In this document: in pieces, positions 17,214 to 53,467 of the stretch
How the letters are laid out: each line of letters begins with the position of its first letter
Position numbering within the stretch: position 1 is the first letter of the stretch
Made by a program: the position numbers and the translations under genes
The notes under the pieces: model-generated
Told to the model about the DNA's origin: nothing
Database searches by the model: none
The model's input: the letters and a program-made list of their open reading frames with translations, nothing else
Assembly (NCBI RefSeq): GCF_034314085.1
Contig: NZ_JAVIWI010000001.1
Location: 2,480,001-2,544,000 of the forward strand
DNA from: Undibacterium sp. 5I1
Lineage (GTDB): Bacteria; Pseudomonadota; Gammaproteobacteria; Burkholderiales; Burkholderiaceae_D
DNA length: 64,000 nucleotides
Reading direction: 5' to 3'

Positions 17214-17927
17214 CTACGACTGCAATGCCAACCAATGTCGGTAAGTCAGCAAAGCCACTTGGGCATCATCTGCGGCATACTTGATTTGGCGCTCAGTCAA
17301 TGGCACTAATGACCAGTTAGAGGTGGATATCTTTTTCGACTTTTGTAGCTTCGTCCCGAAGAACAAGGCCACAGCCGACTTCGCGCCCATGTCACTGCCC
17401 TTTTTCTTACGCATTGCACGCGACAGATCAAGCACATTTTGTGGCGCGATCCCCAGACGAGAACGCAAACGGCTCTGATCGTCACCCAGACCAAAACCTA
17501 CTTTTAATATATGACTGGCTTCCAGCGCCTGTTTGGCCGGCTCTAAATAAAGCGAATCCAAAACCGGAAATAAAAACGCCTGCGTATCGGTCGCCAGCTG
17601 TATCAAATGCGGCCCGCTAGAATGTTGACCTTTAACAAAAGTCGGGCGCGATTCCGTATCAAAGCCCAGCACATCCGCTGCCATTAAAGCAATTCGCGCC
17701 TGCTCAGCCAGTGCGGCAGTAGTAATCACGAAAACGTTATTTAAGGACACGCCCTCGTAAGGCGGCAACATTGGTTCGGGTAAGTCATCCGGCTCTGTAG
17801 CCTCGGACAAAATGGTATCGGTTGCTGAAGACGACACAGGGGAAACGCTAGTGAGAGACACTGCATCACCCGAATTATTCGGATCATCAGCGGAGTGAGT
17901 AGGTAAGTTCATTCGGGAATCATACAC
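17214..17927 (-). CDS. 3'-5' exonuclease, DEDD family (RNase D-like)
   Basis: Predicted nuclease that removes nucleotides from 3' ends by two-metal catalysis. Exo I motif LGFDTESRP supplies Asp and Glu, Exo II lies in LKVGFGLGDDQSRLR, and Exo III is KYAADDAQVALLTY (the DEDDy tyrosine form). The first ~55 residues are Ser/Thr/Pro-rich and probably disordered. There is no HRDC domain, so it is a stand-alone exonuclease domain like those annotated as 3'-5' exonuclease domain proteins, not full RNase D. An ATG five codons downstream (17912) is an alternative start. It reads away from the tracrRNA promoter region but is not part of the CRISPR locus. Confidence 0.88.
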   Translation of the reverse strand: MYDSRMNLPTHSADDPNNSGDAVSLTSVSPVSSSATDTILSEATEPDDLPEPMLPPYEGVSLNNVFVITTAALAEQARIALMAADVLGFDTESRPTFVKGQHSSGPHLIQLATDTQAFLFPVLDSLYLEPAKQALEASHILKVGFGLGDDQSRLRSRLGIAPQNVLDLSRAMRKKKGSDMGAKSAVALFFGTKLQKSKKISTSNWSLVPLTERQIKYAADDAQVALLTYRHWLALQS

Positions 17928-17976
17928 GCCATGTTATTAGGGGTAAATTGCATACCCAAAAGAGAACGCATCGTGC

Positions 17977-18008
17977 AAAAAGCAAAAGACCGCATATAGC
18001 GGTCTTTT
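17977..18008 (-). terminator. tracrRNA terminator hairpin
   Basis: On the minus strand a 10-bp stem AAAAGACCGC / GCGGTCTTTT with a short TATAT-type loop is followed by GC and five Ts. It forms the 3' end of the predicted tracrRNA. Confidence 0.85.
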
Positions 18009-18065
18009 CATTTGGTGCATCTTTCAGCTTGTTAGCGTCCAAAGCACATATCCCAATCTGATAAT
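17977..18065 (-). ncRNA. tracrRNA of the type II-C CRISPR system
   Basis: About 89 nt read leftward from near 18065. The 5' part carries the antirepeat: CAGATTGGGATATGTGCT (minus strand of 18043-18060) is identical to 18 nt of the plus-strand repeat, so it base-pairs with the crRNA repeat made from the minus strand. Downstream come a weaker lower-stem part with AAC pairing GUU, then AAGCTGAAAGATGCACC, which resembles the nexus of Neisseria II-C tracrRNA (CUGAAAAGAUGUGCC). The terminator hairpin and T-tract follow. A promoter with ideal spacing lies just upstream. The RNA is not experimentally shown here, but pairing, promoter and terminator agree in direction. Confidence 0.88.
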
Positions 18066-18071
18066 GCTTGA

Positions 18072-18100
18072 ATAATAGTCGCATATTATTGTAGAGTCAA
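18072..18100 (-). promoter_or_regulatory. Sigma70-type promoter of the tracrRNA
   Basis: Minus strand: -35 TTGACT (18095-18100), 17-bp spacer, -10 TATTAT (18072-18077). The predicted start at about 18065 lies just before the antirepeat. The cas9 promoter must share or flank this 60-bp divergent region. Confidence 0.8.
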
Positions 18101-18128
18101 TGTGTTATAAAAAAACAAAGGAACTAGG

Positions 18129-21100
18129 ATGCTCGGCAAAATGGCGTATCGGTTGGCATTAGATTTAGGATCAACCTCTTTAGGTTGGTCAATGATAAGA
18201 CTTGATCAAGAAATTCCGCCGTCTCCGATAGCAGTTATCAAGGCGGGAGTACGAATTTTTTCAGATGGACGAAATCCAAAAGATGGTTCATCACTTGCCG
18301 TTACTCGCCGAGAAGCACGTGCTACGCGTCGCCGTCGCGATCGTTTATTAAAACGAAAAGCGCGAATGACTAAATCACTTATAGAACATAATTTTTTTCC
18401 TGTTGACGCACAATCACGTAAAGAACTAGAACTACTCAATCCCTATACGCTACGAGCCAAGGGCTTGGATGAAATGTTGACGCCACAAGAATTCGCTCGT
18501 GCACTCTTTCATATCAACCAGCGACGTGGCTTTAAAAGTAATCGTAAAACCGATAAAAAAGATAATGACAGCGGCGCCCTAAAAACCGCAATTAGTAAGT
18601 TGCGATCGGCTCTTATTGAAGAAAACTGTCGCACAGTAGGTGAATGGCTACATAAACGAGACAGTTCAGGTAAAACTGTGCGTGCCCGTTTCCGTGAAAG
18701 TAAAGTTACTAGGGATGACGGAAAAACTCGCATCGATAAAAGCTACGATCTATATATCGACAGAGCAATGATTGAGGCTGAATTTGAAGCGTTATGGCAA
18801 AAACAAACCACATTCAACCCGACACTTTTCAACGAAACAGCCAAAGTAGATTTGAAAGATGCGTTGTTATTTCAACGTCCACTCAAACCTGTCACACCCG
18901 GGCGCTGTACGCTACTCCCAGACGAGATGCGCGCGCCGCTCGCACTACCAAGTACGCAGCGCTTCCGTGTCTACCAAGAAGTAAATAACCTCAGAATACT
19001 GCGTGCTGGTCTCAAAGAAGAATCTTTAACTATTCAGCAGCGAGACATTATTGTCGCGGCTCTCGAAGAGAACAGCAAACGTTCATTCACTCAAATAACG
19101 AAATTACTCGGTTTAGGATCCATTACATTTAATATTGAAGATGCGAAACGTCAGGAGCTTAAAGGCAACACGACAAGCGCGATTCTGAGCAAACCAGATC
19201 ATTTTGGGAAATCATGGTTTTCATTCGACGAAAGCAAACAAGACGCTGTAGTGCATCAATTAGTAACAGAAGAAAATCTCGCAAAATTAATGCGCTGGCT
19301 TGTTACTGAAACGGGTATAGACGAAGACCAAGCGGAAGTCATTGCCAACATTGGGCTACCGGAAGGATATGGAAGCCTAAGTATACAAGCGCTGAACCGC
19401 ATACTTCCAGAGCTAAGAAAAAACGTTATAACCTACGACAAAGCCGTACTGGCAGCAGGCTTCGCACACCATAGCAATATTAGTGCATCAGCGACAGGTG
19501 AGATTTTATTAGAGCTTCCTTATTACGGCCTGCCGCTACAGCGCCATGTCGGATTTGGTACAGGCAACCCAAATGACACAGATGAAAAACGTTATGGACG
19601 TATAGCAAACCCAACTGTTCATATCGGACTGAACCAGGTTAGATTAGTCGTAAATGCGCTGATTAAACGCTATGGACACCCTAGTGAAATTATCGTAGAA
19701 GTCGCACGAGATCTTAAACAAAGTAAAGATCAGCGGGACGATGCGAATAAACGTCAAGCAGAGAATCAAAAACGCAACGCACGCTTGCGTACCGATGTGG
19801 CAAATATTCTACAAATCAGCGAAGAGCGGGTAAAAGCGGCAGATGTGCAAAAAATGATTTTATGGGAAGAACTCAGCTTTAACCCAGCAGATCGTCATTG
19901 TCCATACTCTGGGATTCAAATCAGCGCGCACATGCTGCTCAGCAACGAAGTAGAAATTGAGCATATATTGCCATTCTCTATAACGCTAGATGATAGTCTC
20001 AACAATAAGACGGTGGCACTTCGCAAAGCGAACCGAATTAAGGGTAACAATACTCCTTGGGATGCGTTTGGAAAGCAAACGGTAGCCGGATTTTCTTATG
20101 CCGAAATACTCGCCAGAGCGGAGCAAATGCCTAAAGCTAAGCGATACCGCTTTGCGGAGGATGGCTATCAAAGATGGCTTAAGGACGATGCAGGTTTTTT
20201 AGCCAGAGCACTTAATGACACTCGCTATCTAAGCAAAATAGCACGTGAATACGTTCAATTGATTTGTCCAAAAACACGCGTTATCCCGGGACAAATGACA
20301 GCAATGTTGCGAGCCAAGTTTGGCTTGAATGATGTACTTGGGCTCAATGGTGAAAAAAATCGTAACGATCATCGACATCATGCAGTTGATGCTTGTGTCA
20401 TCGGCGTTACAGATCAAGGTTTAATGCAACGGTTTGCGCAAGCAAGTGCCAGCGCAAGAGAAAAACAACTTAATCGACTTGTCGAGAATATGCCTTTACC
20501 TTGGGAGACTTATCGCGAGCATGTAGAGCGTGCGATACAAAGAATTTGGGTGAGCCACAAACCAGATCATAGCCACGAGGGTGCGATGCATAATGATACT
20601 GCTTACAGTTTGCTCGGCAATGACAAAGTTAGCGTGCATAAGATAGTTGATGGCAAACGTACTCGCGTTGAAGATAATCTCAAGGTCATTGAATTTACTG
20701 ATGGCAAAGCAATTGATCGGCACGGACTAAAACCTAATGGGGAACCGAAGCCTTACAAAGGATATAAAGGCGACAGTAACTATTGTATTGAGATTGTCCG
20801 CAACGAAAAAGGAAAGTGGGAAGGAGAGGTTGTATCAACATTTGACGCTTACCAGCTTGTACGTAGTTCAGGAATTAAACGATTGCGTGACTTGACTCAA
20901 AGTCTTTCCGGAAAACCGTTGGTAATGCGGTTAATGATAGATGACTTTGTTAGGCTAGAAGTAGACGGCATTCAGCAATCGACTAGAGTTGCAACCATTA
21001 GTACTAATGGACAAATTTTTATGGCAGGTATTAATGAGGCCAATGTCGATGCTAGAAACCGGAGCAAAGAAGAGGCTTTTGGTTATATATCAAAAACTGC

Positions 21101-21182
21101 AGGCTCTCTACAAAAAGCAAAAGGACGAATGGTAAAAATATCTCCACTAGGTGAACTACGTGATCCCGGTTTTAAGGAGTAA
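18129..21182 (+). CDS. cas9: Type II-C CRISPR endonuclease Cas9
   Basis: RNA-guided double-strand DNA endonuclease. At 1017 aa it is in the compact II-C size range. RuvC-I is LALDLGSTSLGW with Asp12. The arginine-rich bridge helix spans residues ~60-80 (TRREARATRRRRDRLLKRK). RuvC-II is IIVEVARD with Glu524. HNH is VEIEHILPFS with His612 and the later Asn635 in KANRIKG. RuvC-III is HRHHAVDACVIG with His751 and Asp754. All catalytic residues are present, so both nucleases should be active. The ATG at 18129 has AAAGGA 6 nt upstream; Met5 (18141) is an alternative. It heads cas9-cas1-cas2, with 5 bp to cas1, whose ribosome site lies in the cas9 3' end. Confidence 0.98.
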   Translation: MLGKMAYRLALDLGSTSLGWSMIRLDQEIPPSPIAVIKAGVRIFSDGRNPKDGSSLAVTRREARATRRRRDRLLKRKARMTKSLIEHNFFPVDAQSRKELELLNPYTLRAKGLDEMLTPQEFARALFHINQRRGFKSNRKTDKKDNDSGALKTAISKLRSALIEENCRTVGEWLHKRDSSGKTVRARFRESKVTRDDGKTRIDKSYDLYIDRAMIEAEFEALWQKQTTFNPTLFNETAKVDLKDALLFQRPLKPVTPGRCTLLPDEMRAPLALPSTQRFRVYQEVNNLRILRAGLKEESLTIQQRDIIVAALEENSKRSFTQITKLLGLGSITFNIEDAKRQELKGNTTSAILSKPDHFGKSWFSFDESKQDAVVHQLVTEENLAKLMRWLVTETGIDEDQAEVIANIGLPEGYGSLSIQALNRILPELRKNVITYDKAVLAAGFAHHSNISASATGEILLELPYYGLPLQRHVGFGTGNPNDTDEKRYGRIANPTVHIGLNQVRLVVNALIKRYGHPSEIIVEVARDLKQSKDQRDDANKRQAENQKRNARLRTDVANILQISEERVKAADVQKMILWEELSFNPADRHCPYSGIQISAHMLLSNEVEIEHILPFSITLDDSLNNKTVALRKANRIKGNNTPWDAFGKQTVAGFSYAEILARAEQMPKAKRYRFAEDGYQRWLKDDAGFLARALNDTRYLSKIAREYVQLICPKTRVIPGQMTAMLRAKFGLNDVLGLNGEKNRNDHRHHAVDACVIGVTDQGLMQRFAQASASAREKQLNRLVENMPLPWETYREHVERAIQRIWVSHKPDHSHEGAMHNDTAYSLLGNDKVSVHKIVDGKRTRVEDNLKVIEFTDGKAIDRHGLKPNGEPKPYKGYKGDSNYCIEIVRNEKGKWEGEVVSTFDAYQLVRSSGIKRLRDLTQSLSGKPLVMRLMIDDFVRLEVDGIQQSTRVATISTNGQIFMAGINEANVDARNRSKEEAFGYISKTAGSLQKAKGRMVKISPLGELRDPGFKE

Positions 21183-21187
21183 ACTCC

Positions 21188-22117
21188 ATGATAGGCCGCA
21201 TAGTAGAAATAGCTGATGACCGCCGCCATTTATTCCTATCACGCGGTTTTATGGTGGTGCAGGATACTGAAGGTCTACGCAAGGAACTAGGGCAAATACC
21301 ATTAGACGATATCGCTGCGGTCATCGCTAACGCACATGGTTTGAGTTATACCAATAATTTAATCATCGCTCTAGCGGAACGCTGCGCACCTTTTGTGCTG
21401 TGCTCTGCGAATCACAATGCAGCCGGCATGCTACTACCAATCGAAGGCAATTTTCAACAGGCAAAACGTTTTGATGCGCAGCTAGCGGCATCTCAACCCA
21501 CTATCAAACGCCTTTGGGCCGATATTGTTAAATCAAAACTCCAACAACAAGCGGCAGCGTTAGAGGCAGCTAACGTTGCCAGCATTCCTTTATCGTCCTT
21601 GGTACGCAAAGTACGCTCTGGTGATCCAGACAATTTTGAGGCACAAGGAGCACGACGGTATTGGAGTCTTCTATTTGGCGACGACTTTAGGCGTGATCAA
21701 CAATCTGGCGGATTAAACTCGATGCTTAATTACGGCTACACCGTGTTGCGTGCGACAACAGCACGTGCTGTTGTCGCTGCAGGTCTGCATCCGACGATGG
21801 GGCTACATCATAGTAATCAAGGTAACGCAATGCGCCTAGTCGATGATTTGATGGAGCCATTTCGCCCAATGATTGATCTCAAAGTTTGGCAGTTGCATAA
21901 GCAAGGTGAGAGTTCTATCACACCGGAAAGTAAGCGCGCATTAGTTCGCACCATGTATGACGATATGCAAACAAATGTCGGTGTCACACCTGTTATTGTC
22001 TGTACGCAAAAACTTGCGACATCGTTGGCTCAAATATTTATTGGTGAAAAAGATAAACTGGATTTACCTTTACCTGGCTTACCCCTCAATTTGGCTTCAG
22101 CTCTGCAAGAAGAGTAA
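21188..22117 (+). CDS. cas1: CRISPR integrase Cas1
   Basis: Metal-dependent integrase that, with Cas2, inserts new spacers. The 309-aa length and sequence fit type II Cas1. The N-terminal beta domain (MIGRIVEIADDRRHLFLSRGFMVV) is followed by the helical catalytic domain with NYGYTVLRATTARAVVAAGLHPTMGLHHSNQ and DDLMEPFRPMID, which supply the metal-binding His and acidic residues. It is translated from AAGGAG at the end of cas9 and followed by cas2 after 6 bp, a tight operon. No csn2 or cas4 is present, which is what defines subtype II-C. Confidence 0.97.
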   Translation: MIGRIVEIADDRRHLFLSRGFMVVQDTEGLRKELGQIPLDDIAAVIANAHGLSYTNNLIIALAERCAPFVLCSANHNAAGMLLPIEGNFQQAKRFDAQLAASQPTIKRLWADIVKSKLQQQAAALEAANVASIPLSSLVRKVRSGDPDNFEAQGARRYWSLLFGDDFRRDQQSGGLNSMLNYGYTVLRATTARAVVAAGLHPTMGLHHSNQGNAMRLVDDLMEPFRPMIDLKVWQLHKQGESSITPESKRALVRTMYDDMQTNVGVTPVIVCTQKLATSLAQIFIGEKDKLDLPLPGLPLNLASALQEE

Positions 22118-22123
22118 TGCGCC

Positions 22124-22450
22124 ATGCTTACCGGATATCGCATCATGTGGATTGTAGTGATGTTTGATTTACCTGTGATAGAAAAATCTGAACGCAAAGC
22201 AGCAAGCGAATTTCGCAACTCCTTACTCGATATGGGATTTGAAATGTCGCAATTTTCTGTATACATGCGCTTTTGTACTAGCCAAACTCAAGTAGATACG
22301 TATTGCAAACGAGTCGAGCAAAACTTACCCAGCGGCGGCAAGGTGAATATCCTACAATTTACGGACAAACAATACGAACGTATCATCACTTTTCGTGGAA
22401 AAGCGAAACAAGCCCCTAATAAATCCCCAGATCAATTCGACTTATTTTGA
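22124..22450 (+). CDS. cas2: CRISPR adaptation protein Cas2
   Basis: Small partner of Cas1 in spacer integration, 108 aa. The ferredoxin-like fold starts IMWIVVMFDLPVIEK, where the Asp after the first strand is the conserved Cas2 position. The middle has FEMSQFSVYMRFC, and the end (FRGKAKQAPNKSPDQFDLF) is the long tail common in type II Cas2. It is the last cas gene; its stop lies 70 bp before the first CRISPR repeat, and a terminator hairpin occupies that gap. Confidence 0.96.
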   Translation: MLTGYRIMWIVVMFDLPVIEKSERKAASEFRNSLLDMGFEMSQFSVYMRFCTSQTQVDTYCKRVEQNLPSGGKVNILQFTDKQYERIITFRGKAKQAPNKSPDQFDLF

Positions 22451-22475
22451 TGAAAAATCCCGTTTTTACCACCTC

Positions 22476-22512
22476 AAAAAAGCATAAACCCCTGAATAAT
22501 CAGGGGTTTATG
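22476..22512 (-). terminator. Terminator between cas2 and the array, oriented leftward
   Basis: Perfect 13-bp stem CATAAACCCCTGA / TCAGGGGTTTATG (22483-22495 and 22500-22512), loop ATAA. The T-tract (six Ts) follows only on the minus strand; the plus side continues TGGTGTTACT. It should therefore stop transcripts arriving from the array better than those arriving from cas2. Confidence 0.85.
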
Positions 22513-22520
22513 GTGTTACT

Positions 22521-25326
22521 AGTTTAGCAGATTGGGATATGTGCTCTGACCGGAACCTTTGCGCGCAGTGGATAAAACATGGGATAGTTTAGCAGATTGG
22601 GATATGTGCTCTGACCGGAACATTAGCCAGTGACATAACTGTGGAACATAAAGTTTAGCAGATTGGGATATGTGCTCTGACCGGAACACTGGACTGGTGC
22701 TGGAGTCGTTGACCAACAGTTTAGCAGATTGGGATATGTGCTCTGACCGGAACGCAATCAACGTCGTCAATGCAGCGTCACCAAGTTTAGCAGATTGGGA
22801 TATGTGCTCTGACCGGAACTAAGGTCTTCGATACTGGATACGCTCCGCGAGTTTAGCAGATTGGGATATGTGCTCTGACCGGAACCGGCAAAAGGTAAAG
22901 GTTCAAACACGAGTGAGTTTAGCAGATTGGGATATGTGCTCTGACCGGAACTAAAAGATACCACCTGATCGTATGACAACGAGTTTAGCAGATTGGGATA
23001 TGTGCTCTGACCGGAACATAACTGCGGCGCGTAAAAATGTCATTGAAAGTTTAGCAGATTGGGATATGTGCTCTGACCGGAACTTAAATACCGTCACCCA
23101 GCTATTAGCGTCGAGTTTAGCAGATTGGGATATGTGCTCTGACCGGAACGCGTGGCCGTTGTTTTGGCTGCGCTTTTAGAGTTTAGCAGATTGGGATATG
23201 TGCTCTGACCGGAACGCATCCAACGGCTTGGCAATCGGCAAATTGAGTTTAGCAGATTGGGATATGTGCTCTGACCGGAACCTTGACCCGCTTAACACGT
23301 AGGGAAGTTTGAGTTTAGCAGATTGGGATATGTGCTCTGACCGGAACGGTGCATTCGCATGCGCCACTGTGTTCAAGAGTTTAGCAGATTGGGATATGTG
23401 CTCTGACCGGAACGAAAATCAATCACTTGAAAGAACGCTTTCCAGTTTAGCAGATTGGGATATGTGCTCTGACCGGAACCCGCGCAGTTCGTACTTCAAA
23501 GTCCAATCTAGTTTAGCAGATTGGGATATGTGCTCTGACCGGAACCTTGTAACGTTACATGATGATGAGATCGCAAGTTTAGCAGATTGGGATATGTGCT
23601 CTGACCGGAACTGGGCATCTGAGCGAGAAACTGAGCTGCGAGTTTAGCAGATTGGGATATGTGCTCTGACCGGAACCGGCCAGACTGAGCAGCGGCTAAC
23701 TTGTCAAGTTTAGCAGATTGGGATATGTGCTCTGACCGGAACTGAGCCGGAGTAAAATCGGCCAACGAATTAAGTTTAGCAGATTGGGATATGTGCTCTG
23801 ACCGGAACCCATTTTTACCGAGATGCTACACGCCGGAAAGTTTAGCAGATTGGGATATGTGCTCTGACCGGAACACGGACAAGACTTTGATTCAGAAGTC
23901 TATGAGTTTAGCAGATTGGGATATGTGCTCTGACCGGAACGAACGCATGATTTTTATGACCAATTGTGCAAGTTTAGCAGATTGGGATATGTGCTCTGAC
24001 CGGAACATCGTCAACGTCGCTGCATCGCTGGGGCATAGTTTAGCAGATTGGGATATGTGCTCTGACCGGAACTAGCCAAAGGGTAACTTATTGGAGTCAA
24101 ACAGTTTAGCAGATTGGGATATGTGCTCTGACCGGAACTGGCGGATGCTGTAGACGTTAATTGATCTCAGTTTAGCAGATTGGGATATGTGCTCTGACCG
24201 GAACTGCCAACATCTTCCAATCACGATGGCCTGAAGTTTAGCAGATTGGGATATGTGCTCTGACCGGAACGCTACTGTTTGCATCGAATTATGACTACTG
24301 AGTTTAGCAGATTGGGATATGTGCTCTGACCGGAACTCACTTGCGATGGATGATCTACCCTTAGTTAGTTTAGCAGATTGGGATATGTGCTCTGACCGGA
24401 ACTGATGCGCGCCATCAATGCCTGCGTCAATGAGTTTAGCAGATTGGGATATGTGCTCTGACCGGAACCTAACCGAGCATCACAAAAAGTGGAATGGCAG
24501 TTTAGCAGATTGGGATATGTGCTCTGACCGGAACATTCACGTTGGCTGAAAAAAAAGGCCAGCTAGTTTAGCAGATTGGGATATGTGCTCTGACCGGAAC
24601 GGCATCATCAAGCTGTATCACTTCGGCCAGAGTTTAGCAGATTGGGATATGTGCTCTGACCGGAACTGACGGCGTTTGCTGGGTCAGCCTGGTACGAGTT
24701 TAGCAGATTGGGATATGTGCTCTGACCGGAACAATACGGGCATGTGATCGGTAATGCGCAGCAGTTTAGCAGATTGGGATATGTGCTCTGACCGGAACCC
24801 AGCCGCAAGGCCTGGCGAACAACATCTGAGTTTAGCAGATTGGGATATGTGCTCTGACCGGAACCGGGACGGTTGGCATGTGGAAACGGATTTGAGTTTA
24901 GCAGATTGGGATATGTGCTCTGACCGGAACCTCATGTGTATTGTCCATTGTCGAAAACTTAGTTTAGCAGATTGGGATATGTGCTCTGACCGGAACAGCA
25001 CCAGCGCATGAGATGTTGACGCGTCTAGTTTAGCAGATTGGGATATGTGCTCTGACCGGAACACGATTAAGGGCAAAGAGTACGCGGCTGACAGTTTAGC
25101 AGATTGGGATATGTGCTCTGACCGGAACAGGGAAGCCCAAGCGTATTTGTGCGGCGTAAGTTTAGCAGATTGGGATATGTGCTCTGACCGGAACAGTAGT
25201 ACGGCACATCGACACTGTTACCTAAGTTTAGCAGATTGGGATATGTGCTCTGACCGGAACCTGATGCTGCTAATGCAAGCTCTATTTTGGAGTTTAGCAG
25301 ATTGGGATATGTGCTCTGATCTGATC
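22521..25326 (-). CRISPR. Type II-C CRISPR array, 43 repeats and 42 spacers
   Basis: The 36-nt repeat, plus strand, begins AGTTTAGCAGATTGGG and ends CTCTGACCGGAAC. The spacing is 66 bp except at two places (spacers starting at 22557 and 23612), where spacers are 29 nt instead of 30. Forty-two repeats appear identical by eye. The last, at 25291, has three changes in its final seven bases. Strand is given as minus because the tracrRNA antirepeat pairs with the minus-strand repeat, which reads GTTCCGGTC... and ends ...CTGCTAAACT, an extended -10. No duplicated spacer was noticed. Spacer targets were not searched. Confidence 0.98.
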
Positions 25327-25640
25327 GCTACCGAACCTAAAACCCGTTTTTAATATTTGACGGGCCTCCAAACTTATCTAGCGAAATCCGCCATACGATG
25401 TTGATTAGCTACCAGAGAATAGAAGCTGACCTAAGAGATTATTCCATTGTTGCAAATTTCATTGATAGAATATAAATTAGTCTCTAAAACTGTCTTATCA
25501 ATTTGCTTCTCTTTTTAAGAATAAGCGATTTGATGTGTGTTCCATCTGGTTTTTCAGACAAAATGCGACCCTGACTTTTTTGGGTCGATTTACATTCAAA
25601 CCAATCACCGCAGTATTTTAGCCTTCAAACATCAGACCCA
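25327..25640. other. Trailer of the array and upstream region of the GNAT gene
   Basis: About 315 bp of AT-rich sequence after the degenerate last repeat. A weak 6-bp hairpin (GACCC/GGGTC, about 25566-25587) precedes the acetyltransferase gene. No remnant repeat or gene was seen. Confidence 0.35.
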
Positions 25641-26159
25641 ATGCGAACATCACGTCTACTCTTACGGCGCCCAGATGCAGACGATGCCGAAAATCTCTTT
25701 GCTATTTATGGCGATCCACGAACGAATGCTTACAACCCGCACGGACCATATCCAAATCTTGACCGGGCTAAAACCGTATTAGCCACATGGATCACACATT
25801 GGGAGCAACATGGGTTCGGCCAGTGGGCAATCTCAAGCGCTGATCAGCCTGAAAAAATTATTGGCTATGGTGGCTTAGCTTTAAAGATGTATGGAGATAA
25901 AGATACCTTAAACCTTGGCTATAGATTCGGGGTAGATTCTTGGGGCAACGGGTATGCAACCGAGTTTGCGACTGAAACTTTACGATACGCATTTGCAGAT
26001 TTAAATGCTCCAGATGTTTCTGCCTTAGTCCGGCCACTCAACACGCCGTCCATACGCGTACTGGAGAAAATCGGGATGAACAAAATTGGTATTCTGGAGG
26101 ACGAGCCAAGCGTACCAAGAGGTCGCTATTCCTTGCTGTACCATGCCGAACACAGTTAA
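25641..26159 (+). CDS. GNAT family N-acetyltransferase (RimJ/RimL-like)
   Basis: Transfers an acetyl group from acetyl-CoA to an amine; the substrate is unknown. The 172-aa protein starts MRTSRLLLRRPDADDAENL, the usual opening of the RimJ/RimL branch. The acetyl-CoA-binding region is LGYRFGVDSWGNGYATEFATETLRYAF (the W-GNGYA loop), followed by LVRPLNTPSIRVLEKIGM, the conserved N-x-x-S-x-x-V-x-E-K-x-G-M ending of the fold. A single gene, unrelated in function to the CRISPR locus beside it as far as can be seen. Confidence 0.92.
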   Translation: MRTSRLLLRRPDADDAENLFAIYGDPRTNAYNPHGPYPNLDRAKTVLATWITHWEQHGFGQWAISSADQPEKIIGYGGLALKMYGDKDTLNLGYRFGVDSWGNGYATEFATETLRYAFADLNAPDVSALVRPLNTPSIRVLEKIGMNKIGILEDEPSVPRGRYSLLYHAEHS

Positions 26160-27925: not shown

Positions 27926-29494
27926 TCAGCAAACAACCGATTTTGCCCGCAGCGGCAACAATTCATCAATACGATTATTTTTACAGGTAGGGAGTTTTTC
28001 CAAAGTTTCTTTAAGCCAGGCAAGCGGTTCGATGTTATTCGCTTTGGCGGTGGCGAGTAGACTTTGAATGGCAGCAGCCCGTTTGCCAGCGCGTTCTGAT
28101 CCGGCAAACAGCCAGTTCTTCTTGCCGATGGCAATAGGACGGATGGCATTCTCGATCGGATTATTATCAATCGGTAGATTGCCACTGGCGGCATAGCGCA
28201 TAATCGCCGGCCAGCGCTTGAAGCTGTAATCGATGGCTTTGGCCAGACTGCTGCCATCCGCCGTCTTTTGACGCGTCAGCAGTAACCACGCATGCATCGC
28301 TTCCAATCTCGGCAAGGCTTGTTCTTGGCGGTACCGTGCGCGTTGTTCAATCGAGTAATCTTTGGCCGCGCTCTCAATGTGATACAGCTCGGCTATTCGG
28401 CCCAGCGCTTCGGCGGCCGTTGGGTGTTGATTGGCCGCATGCAAATCAAAGAATTTACGTCGCGCATGCGCCAGGCAAGCGAGCTCAGTGATGCCCTGAC
28501 CAAACATGGCTTTATAGCCCGCGTAGTCATCGACCATCAGGTGTCCTTGCCAATCGGCGAGGAAAGTGCGCGCATGGCTGCCACTGCGCCCAAGCTGAAA
28601 CTCAAACACGATGATCGGCGGACCTTCGTCGAGACTATTACTTCGATACGCCCACAAGTAAGCGCGTTTGGTTTTACCTTTGCCGGGATCTAATTGTTGC
28701 ACCGGTGTTTCGTCGGCATGCAGGACGCTGCGTTCTTTGAGTAATTCGGTCAATCGATCTACCAGCGGTTGCAAAGCGACCCCGATACGTCCGATCCATT
28801 CAGCCAGCGTCGATCGAGAAATCCCCGCACCATGACGGGCGCTGATTTGTTCGATACGATACAGCGGCAAATGATCTAAGTATTTTTGGATAACGACCCA
28901 CGCATGCAAACCGGGCGCGGCTAGCCCGCCGTCGATGATGGCCGGAGGAATGGCGGCTGCGGTAACCGTTTCGCAAGCGCGGCAGGCGTATTGCGGACGG
29001 ATATGGCGATGCACAAAGAAACGCGCTGGTTCGACATCGAGTTGTTCACTGATATCTTCACTGATCTGCACCAGCACATTGCCACATTGACCGCAGTTGC
29101 ACGATTCTGGTTCGTGCCGATGTTCGATGCGTGGCAATTCTGCCGGCAGTGGCTTGCGCCCGGTTGGTTTCGTTTTTACGCGGGGTGCAGAGGAGAGTTG
29201 CTCCAGTTCGGCCTGCATGGCATTAAGATCGGTTTCTTGTGTCTCATCGAATAAATCCCGTTGCTGTGCAGTGAAGGCTTCGGAGGTGCTGCAAAATTTG
29301 ATCCGCTTGTGGTACGCCAGCTCTAACGTGAGAGCGGCAATTTTAGTGACTTTACGGTGTATTTCTGCATCGTGTTGGGCGATTTTACTAGCATCCTTGT
29401 GCGCTTGTTCTGCCCAGGCGGCAACCTGTATCGCCAACTGTTCTGGTGACGTGGTGTGCGGATTAAACTGAGCGAGTGCGGTAGCGAGATCCAT
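27926..29494 (-). CDS. tnpC: IS66 transposase TnpC
   Basis: The DDE transposase of IS66, 522 aa, that carries out transposition. The N-terminal helical region (residues ~1-110) is followed by a zinc-binding segment (CNCGQCGNVL...CRACETV). The catalytic domain has LHADETPV, where the first Asp lies, HLMVDDYAGYKAMF with the second, and NPIENAIRPIAIGKKNWLFAGS with the Glu. The C-terminal IS66 tail LLATAKANNIEPLAWLKE is present, so the gene is full length. It is separated by 80 bp from tnpB upstream. Confidence 0.95.
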   Translation of the reverse strand: MDLATALAQFNPHTTSPEQLAIQVAAWAEQAHKDASKIAQHDAEIHRKVTKIAALTLELAYHKRIKFCSTSEAFTAQQRDLFDETQETDLNAMQAELEQLSSAPRVKTKPTGRKPLPAELPRIEHRHEPESCNCGQCGNVLVQISEDISEQLDVEPARFFVHRHIRPQYACRACETVTAAAIPPAIIDGGLAAPGLHAWVVIQKYLDHLPLYRIEQISARHGAGISRSTLAEWIGRIGVALQPLVDRLTELLKERSVLHADETPVQQLDPGKGKTKRAYLWAYRSNSLDEGPPIIVFEFQLGRSGSHARTFLADWQGHLMVDDYAGYKAMFGQGITELACLAHARRKFFDLHAANQHPTAAEALGRIAELYHIESAAKDYSIEQRARYRQEQALPRLEAMHAWLLLTRQKTADGSSLAKAIDYSFKRWPAIMRYAASGNLPIDNNPIENAIRPIAIGKKNWLFAGSERAGKRAAAIQSLLATAKANNIEPLAWLKETLEKLPTCKNNRIDELLPLRAKSVVC

Positions 29495-29574
29495 GCTGGA
29501 AGTTTACATAGACTCGCCCATGTTTACAACCAAAAAGAATGGTGTTTCGCTATTTTTTTGAACGTATTAAAGAT

Positions 29575-29913
29575 TCACACTTGCCAGTGCGTTGGTGCCT
29601 GTGCCGTCAGGCGATGCCAGTCGACACCTTTGATGAGCCAATCCCATTGTGCTTGCGTAATCACCCAGCATCGATCATCGTTGCTGGGCCAAACAAACGC
29701 ACCACGGTGTAATCGGCGCTGACAGCACCACACGCCAGTGCCATCCCAGATTAACAGTTTTAATCGTGTTTTAGGACGATTGCAAAATGCATAGGCGGTG
29801 CCATCGCATGGCGTGGTACCTAAACTAGTTTGTATCCATTGCGATAAACTCTCTAGGCCACGGCGCATATCGACTGGTTCAATCACGCAACAAATTTGAC
29901 CTGGTGCGATCAT
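29575..29913 (-). CDS. tnpB: IS66 accessory protein TnpB
   Basis: Small (112 aa) accessory protein of IS66 elements, unrelated to the RNA-guided TnpB nucleases. It has the family start ICCVIEPVDMRRGLESLSQWIQ and the core YAFCNRPKTRLKLLIWDGTGVWC. Its ATG overlaps the tnpA stop codon, so the two are translationally coupled. Required for transposition in studied IS66 members (family knowledge). Confidence 0.95.
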   Translation of the reverse strand: MIAPGQICCVIEPVDMRRGLESLSQWIQTSLGTTPCDGTAYAFCNRPKTRLKLLIWDGTGVWCCQRRLHRGAFVWPSNDDRCWVITQAQWDWLIKGVDWHRLTAQAPTHWQV

Positions 29914-30230
29914 GCTAATTCATTGAATAATCGAGCTAGCCAGGTAATCTGCACATCCGCAGGTAGCACAAGCTGCCATCCAGATCCATGTTGCAAGACG
30001 ATCGGCAGAGTCGATGCTGCTGGCGTGCTGGGTTGAATTACAATCGGAACAGTGATCAGGGGTGCTGTTGCTGGTAACTCCTTTCGGCCACGCATAATCC
30101 AGCCGTTGAATGTGGTGGCATTTAATTTGCGCTCACGACAATACGCTGCTTGCGTCAGCCCTGATGCGCGCCAGGTACTAACATGTTGCAGCCAATCTGC
30201 GCGGATTAGGATGGATTTGATTCTTGACAT
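29910..30230 (-). CDS. tnpA: IS66 accessory protein TnpA
   Basis: First gene of the element, 106 aa. The N-terminal helix-turn-helix-like region (DWLQHVSTWRASGLTQAAYC) is typical of IS66 TnpA and probably binds the element ends. The C-terminal half has the basic/hydrophobic pattern GSGWQLVLPADVQITWLARL. It overlaps tnpB by 4 bp (ATGA). Confidence 0.92.
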   Translation of the reverse strand: MSRIKSILIRADWLQHVSTWRASGLTQAAYCRERKLNATTFNGWIMRGRKELPATAPLITVPIVIQPSTPAASTLPIVLQHGSGWQLVLPADVQITWLARLFNELA

Positions 30231-50654: not shown

Positions 50655-52370
50655 TTAAAACTCTTCCCATTCATCCGCTCTCTTAGCAGATGTAGTGTTC
50701 TGCTCTGTGACCTTTTTTGCTGCTAGCGCCGGACGTTTGTATACGGTCACAGGTTTCGATGTCTGCGCTGCTGCGGCAGATACGACCGGTTTAGATGCCA
50801 CTGATTTGCCGTAGCTTCCTGTGTTTTGACCGCCGATGGTGTTGATCTTGAAGACGCTCACGACTTGTAAAAGATTCTGCGCCTGATCTTGCATAGACGC
50901 CGCGGCTGCGGCGGCTTGCTCTACTAATGCGGCGTTTTGTTGTGTGGTCTCATCAATCTCGGTAATGGCAATATTGATCTGATCAATGCCAGCGGTTTGC
51001 TCTTGGGTGGCGGCGCTGATTTCGCTCACGACGTCGCTCACACGCTTGACGCTCTCTACGATTTCTTGAATAGTTTTACCGGCTTGATCCACCAGTTTAG
51101 AGCCTGCCTCGACTTTTTCTACAGAGTTGTCAATCAGAGATTTAATCTCTTTGGCGGCAGAGGCGCTGCGCTGTGCGAGATTGCGTACTTCTGACGCTAC
51201 TACCGCAAATCCACGACCTTGCTCGCCTGCTCTGGCAGCTTCTACCGCTGCGTTGAGTGCCAGAATATTGGTTTGGAAAGCGATGCTGTCTATCACGCCG
51301 ATGATGTCGACGATTTTTTTAGAAGAGTCGTTAATGTCGCTCATGGTGTGGATGACTTGCGACACCACATTGCCACCTTTGATCGCCACCTCGGAGGCGG
51401 ATACGGCGAGCTGGTTTGCCTGACGTGCGTTGTCGGCATTTTGTTTGACGGTGCTGGTCAACTCCTCCATTGAGGAGGCAGTTTCTTCTAATGAGCCGGC
51501 TTGCTGTTCTGTGCGGGAGGACAGATCGAGGTTGCCAGTCGCAATTTCGGTCGAGGCAGCGGTAATCATGTCAGTGCCGGTGCGTACCTCGCCGACGATA
51601 TTTTTTAAACTGTCGCTCATATCTTTAAGCGCCTGTAGCAGTTGCCCGGCTTCGTCCTTAGAGGTCACTTTGATGTCGGTCGTAAGATCACCGGCGGCGA
51701 CAGTTTCTGAAATTTTGATCGCCTCGCTGAGGGAACTAATAATTCTTTTTGTAATCAGCAAACCCATGACGGCAATCCCAATAATTGCAAATAATGAGAT
51801 GGCAGTAGATACCATGTTGGCAGTTTTTAACGTTGCAGCACCTTCTTCCGCTACGGTTTTACCCAAATCCATATTAAATTTAGTGTGCGCACTTAAACTC
51901 TCATTGAGTTTCTTTGAAATTGTACCGAGGTTCAACACTAATAGATCTCTTCCCTCATCACTTTTTCCTATTTTTGCCATCTCTAGCACTTTTTCACGCA
52001 AGGCGTTGTAGTCTTTAAACGCAACACGATCTGCATCTAACATGGCTTTTTCTTCTTTACTAGAGATGTATTCTTTCTCGTATGCAGCAAACGTCTCCAT
52101 CACTTTGGCATAAGTCACTTTCATTTCTTTTTCTACTGCGTCCCGCTGGGAGGCGTCACTCAGCGCCAGGTATTGCCACAACAGCAAGCGCAGCTGCGCT
52201 ATGTCACCGCTGGCAATACCTATGCTACTGATACTCGGTATGGTATCGACATTGGCATAATTGGTTGCGGTATAGACTTTATTCATCTGGTATATGCCAA
52301 AACCAGCCAGTCCCGCCAAACCTAAGAACGCAGAAAAAATCAATAGATATAAACGTTGCGCAATCGTCAT
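50655..52370 (-). CDS. Methyl-accepting chemotaxis protein (intact paralog 2)
   Basis: Chemoreceptor of 571 aa that senses a ligand in the periplasm and controls CheA through CheW. TM1 ([21 protein letters not shown]), four-helix-bundle ligand domain (about 35-185), TM2 ([21 protein letters not shown]), HAMP, and signalling domain with the conserved tip [19 protein letters not shown]. The C-terminal DEWEEF contains an xWxxF docking pentapeptide for the adaptation enzymes. Its signalling half is nearly identical to paralogs 1 and 3, while the ligand domains differ. Upstream sequence around the start (AAAGGAAAAAATAAAATG) is shared with paralog 3. It is the only unbroken one of the three. Confidence 0.96.
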
Positions 52371-52516
52371 TTTATTTTTTCCTTTAGTAGTGAACTATTA
52401 GCTAAATCGATTTAGCGGCATTGGGAATTACTGATGCTAGGCTTACTAAAGAGTAATCTCCATGACATTATCTTTATTTAAAACCAAGTAAGAGATTTGG
52501 TAAGACTTACACAAAA

Positions 52517-53281
52517 TCACCACAATTTTGCCAGCGGCATAACCAATCCGGTGAATAAAGACAAATCTGGTGATGCCTTATTCAAGCCTTTGGCAAAACC
52601 AAAATCAATCGTCAGTTTATTACTCGGGCTGTAGGTTAATGCAGCCAAAGCTTGGGCAGTGTCGTCGGTGCCGCGTCTGCGTGTGCCGCTGAGTTCTGCC
52701 GTGATACCCCATTTTTCAGTGACGGCTAGTGATGCGGATGTTGAAATACCTGTTTGCGTTCTGGCAGTACCGGGATCGACCAAGCCCAAACGCGTAAAAT
52801 TAAGGTTGGCATCTATATGCAGTTTGCCGATGTCTTTACTGTAAATCCCATTCACGCTGTAATCTGTTTTGCCACTACCGATCGTATTTTTAGCGGTGGG
52901 GACTTTGACGCCAAACTCCAGTCCAAATGCGGTATCGTCATTCATCAAGAAGGCACGCTTTAATACCAGCGTGGTATCACCCAAGCTGCGCTCACGGTTG
53001 CCCTGATCATCCGATGATGAAACTATGGCCTCACCGCCGATCAACACCCCCCATTGCGGATTAAACGCCAGCTTTAATTGGTAAGGCAAACTATCTCGTC
53101 TGGTCCCATCTTGCCTGGTGCTAAGCAGACCCAATTCCAGTTCTAATTGTCCTGGAAACGGTAATTGTGCTGGACTCGATACCGAGGGACGGTACGGCGT
53201 AACCTCACCATCATCAGCGTAAGCATAGACGCAACAACTGAGCAGAGCGAGCAGACAGATGGGGAGATGAGTAGGTCGCAT
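52517..53281 (-). CDS. Outer-membrane beta-barrel transporter-like protein
   Basis: 254-aa exported protein with a signal peptide (MRPTHLPICLLALLSCCVYAYA). The mature part alternates short amphipathic strands (QLELELGLLST, SLPYQLKLAFNPQWGVLIGGEAI, TAFGLEFGVKVPTA, LTIDFGFAKGL) and ends in Trp (PLAKLW), as for an outer-membrane beta barrel. It resembles proteins annotated as transporter/MetA-pathway phenol degradation-like, but substrate and role are unknown. It lies between chemoreceptor paralogs 2 and 3 on the same strand. Confidence 0.75.
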   Translation of the reverse strand: MRPTHLPICLLALLSCCVYAYADDGEVTPYRPSVSSPAQLPFPGQLELELGLLSTRQDGTRRDSLPYQLKLAFNPQWGVLIGGEAIVSSSDDQGNRERSLGDTTLVLKRAFLMNDDTAFGLEFGVKVPTAKNTIGSGKTDYSVNGIYSKDIGKLHIDANLNFTRLGLVDPGTARTQTGISTSASLAVTEKWGITAELSGTRRRGTDDTAQALAALTYSPSNKLTIDFGFAKGLNKASPDLSLFTGLVMPLAKLW

Positions 53282-53343
53282 TCTTATATTCCGATCTAGA
53301 TGGGGAGATAAATGGTTTCAAGATCCAATTACAATAAACATAT

Positions 53344-53467
53344 AGGACTGACGTAAAATTATCCCAGCAACACGCATTGACGATTACCCTATTTAGCATC
53401 TAAGTTACCGAGATAACTTACGGTGACTCGGTGCCGTAACGCTTTGGGTCGGTTTTGCGTAAGTCCT
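53344..53467. repeat. GGACTTACGCAAAA-ended small element, copy B
   Basis: 124 bp from AGGACTGACGTAAAATTATC to GGTTTTGCGTAAGTCCT. The right ~16 bp are identical to copy A's end. Non-coding, between the beta-barrel gene and chemoreceptor paralog 3. Confidence 0.6.

Follow-up and report, generated by a model that had tools for sequence, protein, structure and literature searches.

Type II-C CRISPR-Cas (clustered regularly interspaced short palindromic repeats and CRISPR-associated) systems have been described in which the repeats themselves carry promoters and new spacers are acquired at the 3' end of the array (excerpts of PMC12638026 and PMC8092290). In Flavobacterium columnare, a type II-C system acquires spacers at the leader end and transcribes its CRISPR RNAs (crRNAs) leaderward from repeat promoters, with a reported protospacer-adjacent motif (PAM) of NNNNNTAAA (excerpt of PMC8092290). 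Spacers directed at the cell's own genome are known to hint at anti-CRISPR proteins (Acrs) (excerpt of PMC6990116), and Xanthomonas albilineans combines 24 self-targeting spacers, with 16 self-targets in the first prophage, with the presence of Acrs (excerpt of PMC10810201). Here we analyse a window, that is, the whole stretch of 64,000 nucleotides from Undibacterium sp. 5I1 (contig NZ_JAVIWI010000001.1, positions 2,480,001 to 2,544,000), which holds a type II-C locus made of cas9, cas1, cas2, a CRISPR array and a gene for trans-activating CRISPR RNA (tracrRNA). Of its 42 spacers, 17 have matches in the chromosome of the cell itself, 16 on one prophage and one on an intein, and we consider it probable that the system is intact and that its Cas9 is held off by an anti-CRISPR encoded by this prophage. 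Prophages and auto-immunity are reportedly the subject of Nobrega et al. 2020.

Among described systems, the locus resembles the type II-C system of Neisseria meningitidis in having only cas9, cas1 and cas2, a Cas1 that fits the NMENI model, a divergent tracrRNA gene and repeat ends similar to a -10 element. The best PDB match of its Cas9 by sequence (E 3.8e-65) is to chains that we take to be NmeCas9. However, the two proteins can be aligned in two stretches only, the Undibacterium protein has a glutamate instead of an aspartate before the HNH histidine, and its PAM, read here as NGCNNT, differs from the N4GATT of N. meningitidis Cas9. The predicted leader-end acquisition and leaderward transcription from repeat promoters would be as in F. 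columnare, whose system differs by its PAM and belongs to a separate clade (excerpt of PMC8092290). X. albilineans offers the parallel of intact systems with many spacers against resident prophages and with anti-CRISPRs present; its systems, however, are of type I (I-C and I-F1) and its Acrs were tested, whereas here the effector is Cas9 and the Acr is proposed (excerpt of PMC10810201). Among the titles, abstracts and excerpts consulted in the open-licence literature, PAM-listing supplements being outside the search, there was no description of this locus and no NGCNNT PAM for a betaproteobacterial Cas9.

The locus comprises the following features, in window coordinates:

18129-21182, plus strand: cas9, intact open reading frame (ORF) of 1017 amino acids (aa); TIGR01865 cas_Csn1, 646.6 bits
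21188-22117, plus strand: cas1, intact ORF of 309 aa; TIGR03639 cas1_NMENI, 236.5 bits
22124-22450, plus strand: cas2, intact ORF of 108 aa; TIGR01573 cas2, 66.5 bits
17984-18066, minus strand: tracrRNA gene, divergent from cas9, its 5' end placed from the promoter
18095-18100, minus strand: -35 element TTGACT of the tracrRNA gene (promoter scan)
18072-18077, minus strand: -10 element TATTAT of the tracrRNA gene, 17 bp from the -35 element
18043-18060, minus strand: antirepeat, complementary to the crRNA repeat over 18 nt without mismatch
17984-18008, minus strand: intrinsic terminator of the tracrRNA gene, hairpin and T-tract (terminator scan)
22521-25326, minus strand in crRNA sense: CRISPR array, 43 repeats and 42 spacers
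25291-25326, minus strand: degenerate terminal repeat at the trailer end (array scan, in agreement with relatives)
22483-22512, minus strand: terminator-like hairpin in the gap that separates cas2 from the array, consistent with an array transcribed from the minus strand

All three cas profile matches exceed the curated NCBIfam cut-offs, and a search confined to the locus, leaving aside the remaining genome, found neither csn2 nor cas4 adjoining it. The type II-C assignment made from gene content in a first-pass annotation of this DNA thus stands, together with its intact cas9 (1017 codons), cas1 and cas2 and its count of 43 repeats and 42 spacers. In a scan of GTDB genomes, 80 of 93 relatives were kept, in 79 loci; they are mostly betaproteobacterial, with 55-93% identity over the best segment, and Undibacterium sp. 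Jales W-56 is the closest. Arrays were detected in 61 of these 79 loci, with a 36-nt consensus in 55, and the repeats are all related; a related repeat array also lies at 51517-53401 of a 148.9-kb Limnohabitans plasmid (NZ_AP027057.1). Judged by its sequence, the locus is an additional member of an ordinary, conserved and mostly betaproteobacterial type II-C clade.

Cas9 carries the RuvC residues D12, E524, H750/H751 and D754 and the HNH residues E611-H612 and N635. An aspartate usually precedes the HNH histidine in Cas9, and a glutamate is known at this position from other active Cas9s. The earlier claim that all RuvC and HNH residues are present holds with one correction: Glu611 replaces the usual HNH aspartate, as a glutamate does in all 71 aligned clade members. 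Compared with the 95% consensus of 70 relatives (those with an HNH-motif ORF of at least 900 aa, nine of the 79 loci being dropped), the protein deviates solely at V374, and the catalytic residues show no substitution across the clade alignment, in which two rows are gapped at D12. With L002 as the reference, the nonsynonymous and synonymous divergences (dN/dS) are 0.034/0.474 for cas9, 0.016/0.585 for cas1 and 0/0.192 for cas2; all three genes are under purifying selection and free of lesions. An AlphaFold model of Cas9 (25 sequences) was poor, with a mean predicted local distance difference test score (pLDDT) of 65.9, and was not used.

The tracrRNA gene also bears out the first-pass annotation, which had described an 18-nt antirepeat in a divergent RNA gene with its own -35 and -10 elements at 17-bp spacing, a hairpin and a T-tract. 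TTGACT-17-TATTAT is the only site with a 10/12 consensus match among 17 promoter-like sites in 17800-26000, a total close to that expected by chance (shuffle mean 14.6, sd 3.6). The co-folding check suggested at the time gave -58.6 kcal/mol for tracrRNA with the minus-sense repeat versus -35.0 with the plus-sense repeat. The tracrRNA core CGCTAACAAGC...GCACCAAAT, whose low end is at 18010, was found in 73 of the 79 relative loci, every time on the strand opposite to cas9, and compensatory changes occur at 8 of 15 predicted pairs in 15 chosen aligned tails. The alternative of a plus-strand RNA at 18040-18128, whose pairing with the plus-sense repeat would reach -42.9, was rejected as no terminator is listed for it. 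An Rfam scan of the window returned nothing at gathering score. Since the tracrRNA pairs with the minus-sense repeat and has a terminator, the guides are expected to come from the minus strand and to be read in the direction of cas2. The minus-sense repeat ends 3' in TGCTAAACT, a -10-like motif, and the repeats of most relatives end in TANACT or TANAAT. The array consists of 42 perfect 36-nt repeats and a degenerate one at the cas2-distal end; its 42 spacers are all distinct, 40 of 30 nt and two of 29 nt.

When the array was compared with its own genome, 28 places matched at E 10 or better, including the array itself and the tracrRNA antirepeat; a further 15 places reached E 0.002 or better, with 14 clustered in one region. 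A scan of that prophage region (contig C1, 1170001-1250000), in which up to 7 mismatches were allowed, placed 16 of the 42 spacers there, all at 0-4 mismatches: spacers 1, 10, 11, 15 and 23 match perfectly, spacers 3, 4, 16, 29 and 32 with one mismatch, spacers 17, 38 and 39 with two, spacer 33 with three, and spacers 22 and 41 with four. After shuffling, none of the 42 matched at up to 5 mismatches in any of 20 rounds, and among 55 other arrays only four spacers (L002, L006 and L041) matched this prophage, at 4-6 mismatches. The spacers on which the argument turns are:

22557-22585, minus strand: spacer 1, perfect prophage match, flank AGTGGGGT off-PAM
23150-23179, minus strand: spacer 10, perfect prophage match, flank CGCAGTAC
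23216-23245, minus strand: spacer 11, perfect prophage match, flank CGCCTTAA
23414-23443, minus strand: spacer 14, perfect match to an intein in a ribonucleotide reductase gene of the chromosome, flank TTCAATAC
23480-23509, minus strand: spacer 15, perfect prophage match, flank CGCGGTAC
23546-23575, minus strand: spacer 16, matching the own prophage with one mismatch, with further matches in one IMG/VR contig and in two more genomes of the genus
24007-24036, minus strand: spacer 23, perfect prophage match, flank AGCGATGA
24403-24432, minus strand: spacer 29, one mismatch, target in the prophage head protease-capsid gene

The target of spacer 14 lies at C1 1090787, inside an ORF with ribonucleotide reductase and LAGLIDADG domains (L160 400-3030; C1 ~1089.7-1092.3 kb), in which LAGLIDADG scores above, and Hint just below or below, the Pfam cut-offs. 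Because its position, approximately residues 368-377, is inside the Hint stretch (286-401), we read the target as an intein.

The 3' flanks of the 17 self-sites, read in crRNA sense, have G at position 2 in 14, C at position 3 in 16 and T at position 6 in 16, which gives NGCNNT. The motif is found only on the 3' side of the protospacer, as the tracrRNA orientation predicts, and nothing exceeded 0.22 bits on the opposite flank of the 16 prophage sites. NNCNNT is present at 16 of the 17 self-sites, the exception being spacer 1, against a prophage background of 0.062; because the sites themselves supplied the motif, this is a description rather than an independent test. Five sites are both perfect and provided with C3 and T6, namely those of spacers 10, 11, 15 and 23 on the prophage and of spacer 14 on the intein. 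Spacer 16 also has sites beyond this genome, in two genomes of the genus and in a viral contig; their flanks (GGTGTTAC, ACCGTTAC, GGCGTTAC) have T6 in three of three and C3 in two of three. Reading the PAM from spacer hits, as had been proposed, was thus successful, but the hits came almost entirely from the cell's own chromosome and not from phage or plasmid databases.

Searches beyond the chromosome yielded little else. Among 50,697 phage records, 115 had a match at E 5 or better, and the 40 listed amount to one repeat-spacer straddle at E 3, judged to be chance; the plasmid search gave, besides the Limnohabitans array, one 24-nt match at E 0.8, likewise judged to be chance. Exact IMG/VR scans, made with the cores of spacers 16 and 29, returned one contig for spacer 16 and none for spacer 29. 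A comparison of 72 viral loci (70 found through the prophage capsid gene, plus L154 and L191) with 1380 spacers of 56 arrays gave a single match, that of spacer 16 in L154. The weak genome matches G041, G029, G187, G156, G255 and G020 span the repeat-spacer boundary and were discarded, no spacer matched within 6 mismatches in L089-L092, L093 and L094 or in the weak-match loci L172-L175 and L177-L180, and a deeper search of the two genus genomes matched by spacer 16 found no additional site.

The order of the spacers bears on acquisition. Mismatches to the prophage increase with distance from cas2 (Spearman 0.66, p 0.006), and of 52 arrays, 22 have a degenerate repeat at the cas-distal end and none at the cas-proximal end; both observations suggest that the newest spacers adjoin cas2. 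Of the 22 mismatches, ten lie within the 8 positions closest to the PAM (p 0.045), and the first 12 positions hold 13 of them (p 0.055), a weak sign that the phage has come under pressure from this Cas9.

Self-matching was also examined in other genomes of the clade, the six genomes, with that of the window included, having been chosen by closeness or array length and not at random. No spacer matches the own genome in L002 (0 of 52) or L054 (0 of 59); L051 has 4 of 76, at three sites with 2-5 mismatches, and L006 has one of 84, perfect. In L006, which is U. hunanense, this is spacer 52, and its target is, by eye, a ribonucleotide reductase gene; the same gene is matched in several genomes of the genus, with 1 to 4 mismatches. 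In Acidovorax sp. MR-S7, where 40 of 81 candidates were scored, at least 15 of 97 spacers match the own genome at up to 5 mismatches, and at least 13 of them lie on one resident prophage, at least six being perfect and two of the 13 sharing one site. The target region (L290-L293, contig C7, ~200-254 kb) encodes an integrase, a tape-measure protein and a phage lysozyme and adjoins a tRNA-Leu. Thus, more than 10 self-spacers were found in two of the six genomes. Among the scored candidates, the MR-S7 self-sites have T6 in 12 of 15 and G3 in 11 of 15; with G3 in this more distant Cas9 and C3 here, PAMs seem to differ within the clade. The mismatch trend is absent from the same set (Spearman 0.20, p 0.47).

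The targeted prophage of Undibacterium sp. 5I1 is bounded by a 19-bp direct repeat at C1 1173220, the 3' end of a tRNA-Leu, and at 1211944, and is ~38.7 kb long. It encodes an integrase, a large terminase, head, tape-measure, tail and lysis/endolysin proteins, and also a repressor, a CII-like activator, a helicase loader and a reverse transcriptase with Avd; with this gene content and the att repeats it looks complete in outline. The reverse transcriptase and Avd belong to a diversity-generating retroelement (C1 1174731-1176472, 1176522-1177136 and 1179777-1180430), with a template at 1175845-1175952 and two variable repeats, in each of which 15 of 15 differences are at template adenines. At C1 1181316-1181465, a 79-bp stretch is doubled at a 71-bp offset with 98.7% identity. 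Directly past attR, an integrase-like gene extends across two reading frames at C1 1212030-1213460, of which the first part was scanned.

The prophage carries, at its attR end, a run of four small genes that we consider a candidate anti-CRISPR operon by guilt by association, the last gene encoding a helix-turn-helix (HTH) protein:

C1 1211267-1210289, minus strand: candidate operon, four genes
C1 1211267-1211025, minus strand: gene 1, 80-aa ORF
C1 1210985-1210731, minus strand: gene 2, 84-aa ORF
C1 1210734-1210504, minus strand: gene 3, 76-aa ORF
C1 1210507-1210289, minus strand: gene 4, 72-aa HTH protein (HTH_3)

The last two junctions are 4-bp ATGA overlaps, and a 17-bp inverted repeat, equalled in 51 of 2000 shuffles, lies upstream. 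The searches used frames of 88 and 82 aa for the 84-aa gene and one of 76 aa for the HTH gene. The 84-aa ORF has one homologue beyond itself in 5.8 billion proteins, and the 76-aa ORF has nine, none of them named and none with a Pfam domain; the best homologues of the two lie on contigs whose longest is 2338 bases in each case, possibly the same one. None of the phage records matched the 76-aa or 88-aa frames, and a match to AcrIF13 in the fold search with the 76-aa model was rejected, with E 4.7-7.4 over 33-35 columns only. HTH homologues terminate runs of small ORFs in the viral contig L191 and in the Acidovorax phage Alfacinha1. AcrIIC4 and AcrIIC5 sit upstream of aca2 genes (excerpt of PMC6282205). 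The likeness consists of a small orphan ORF directly 5' of an HTH gene, on a mobile element, in a type II-C host; a difference is that no similarity to an Acr was found for the candidates, by sequence with the 76-aa, 88-aa and HTH frames or by fold with the 76-aa ORF, and the HTH gene is likened to aca2 by its position.

How the cell tolerates its own guides can be explained in several ways. The first-pass annotation took the locus to be functional: its intactness, its conservation and the purifying selection on it argue that it has been so, but 17 self-spacers, five of them perfect and with C3/T6 in the PAM, exclude full interference in this strain. An active Cas9 should be lethal at five perfect self-sites with C3 and T6, and full interference is hard to reconcile with the assembled chromosome. 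Given the apparently intact cas9 and tracrRNA gene, survival of the cell is most likely due to an anti-CRISPR made by the prophage, which would be the likeliest source of an inhibitor if one exists. The self-matches could instead be remnants of escape, the prophage sites being mutated or flanked by the wrong PAM and left uncut; mismatches at 11 of the 16 prophage sites, their PAM-proximal excess and the lack of a fitting PAM for spacer 1 go in this direction, but the perfect C3/T6 sites of spacers 10, 11, 15, 23 and 14 defy such an account, which we regard as highly improbable. Another proposal is that Cas9 of this clade natively binds without killing and represses resident prophages, so that self-guides are tolerated by design. 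The recurrence of the pattern in MR-S7 and the glutamate shared by the whole clade at the HNH position would suit it; the remaining nuclease residues are, however, fully conserved, and L002, L006, L054 and L051 have few or no self-spacers, which leaves it improbable.

A more serious competitor is that the system is intact yet silent or weakly expressed under host regulation, the self-guides being harmless in the absence of any phage inhibitor. Such silence would account for the same facts and covers all self-matches without any new protein; moreover, the tracrRNA promoter is good, yet no cas9 promoter was established, and promoter-like sites are about as frequent as expected by chance. On the other side, the low dN/dS of the cas genes and the clade-wide conservation of Cas9 and tracrRNA speak for use over evolutionary time, and the fewest mismatches being nearest cas2 speaks for continued acquisition against close relatives of the prophage. 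We consider silence possible but on the unlikely side. Several further observations weigh against inhibition by a prophage protein. Spacer 1 is off-PAM, and one of the three external spacer-16 sites has T at position 3. The HTH homologues have no visible small-ORF neighbours in L263, L264 and MW202613, which are three of the six contexts. PDB sequence searches with the 76-aa, 88-aa and HTH frames found no Acr, a fold search with the 76-aa model (pLDDT 87.6) gave nothing at E 0.001 or better, and family scans detected no similarity of the candidate operon to known Acrs or anti-CRISPR-associated (Aca) proteins; the inhibitor gene could also sit elsewhere in the genome. Inhibition by a prophage-encoded anti-CRISPR nevertheless remains the explanation that we favour.

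Under this explanation, Cas1 and Cas2 would insert 30-bp spacers at the cas2-proximal end of the array, and guides would be minus-strand transcripts running toward cas2 and probably starting at the promoter-like repeat ends. The guides would pair with the divergently transcribed tracrRNA and direct Cas9 to cut targets having a 3' NGCNNT; in this cell a prophage anti-CRISPR, for which the small ORFs of the attR operon are candidates, would block the nuclease. A broader and rather doubtful extension is that arrays of this clade repeatedly fill with guides against their own prophages, with Cas9, although carrying perfect self-guides, restrained by a new inhibitor family or by binding-only repression, in a stable stand-off between CRISPR and prophage.

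Around the locus, no ORF intervenes between cas9, cas1, cas2 and the array, and the flanking ORFs encode a 3'-5' exonuclease-domain protein and a GNAT protein. The former, beside the tracrRNA gene (17214-17927, minus strand; Pfam DNA_pol_A_exo1), has a partial PADLOC match to BrxHI. Further along, at 27926-30230 on the minus strand, three ORFs resemble, by eye, an IS66-type transposase set.

With 16 spacers on one prophage, a readable PAM, an intact Cas9 and few candidate ORFs, the pointer to an anti-CRISPR is strong and specific here, and both the PAM and a possible new Cas9 inhibitor become testable with a handful of genes. Missing Cas9 interference in this strain could reflect an inhibitor and not a defective system, and an intact CRISPR locus should not be equated with a working one.

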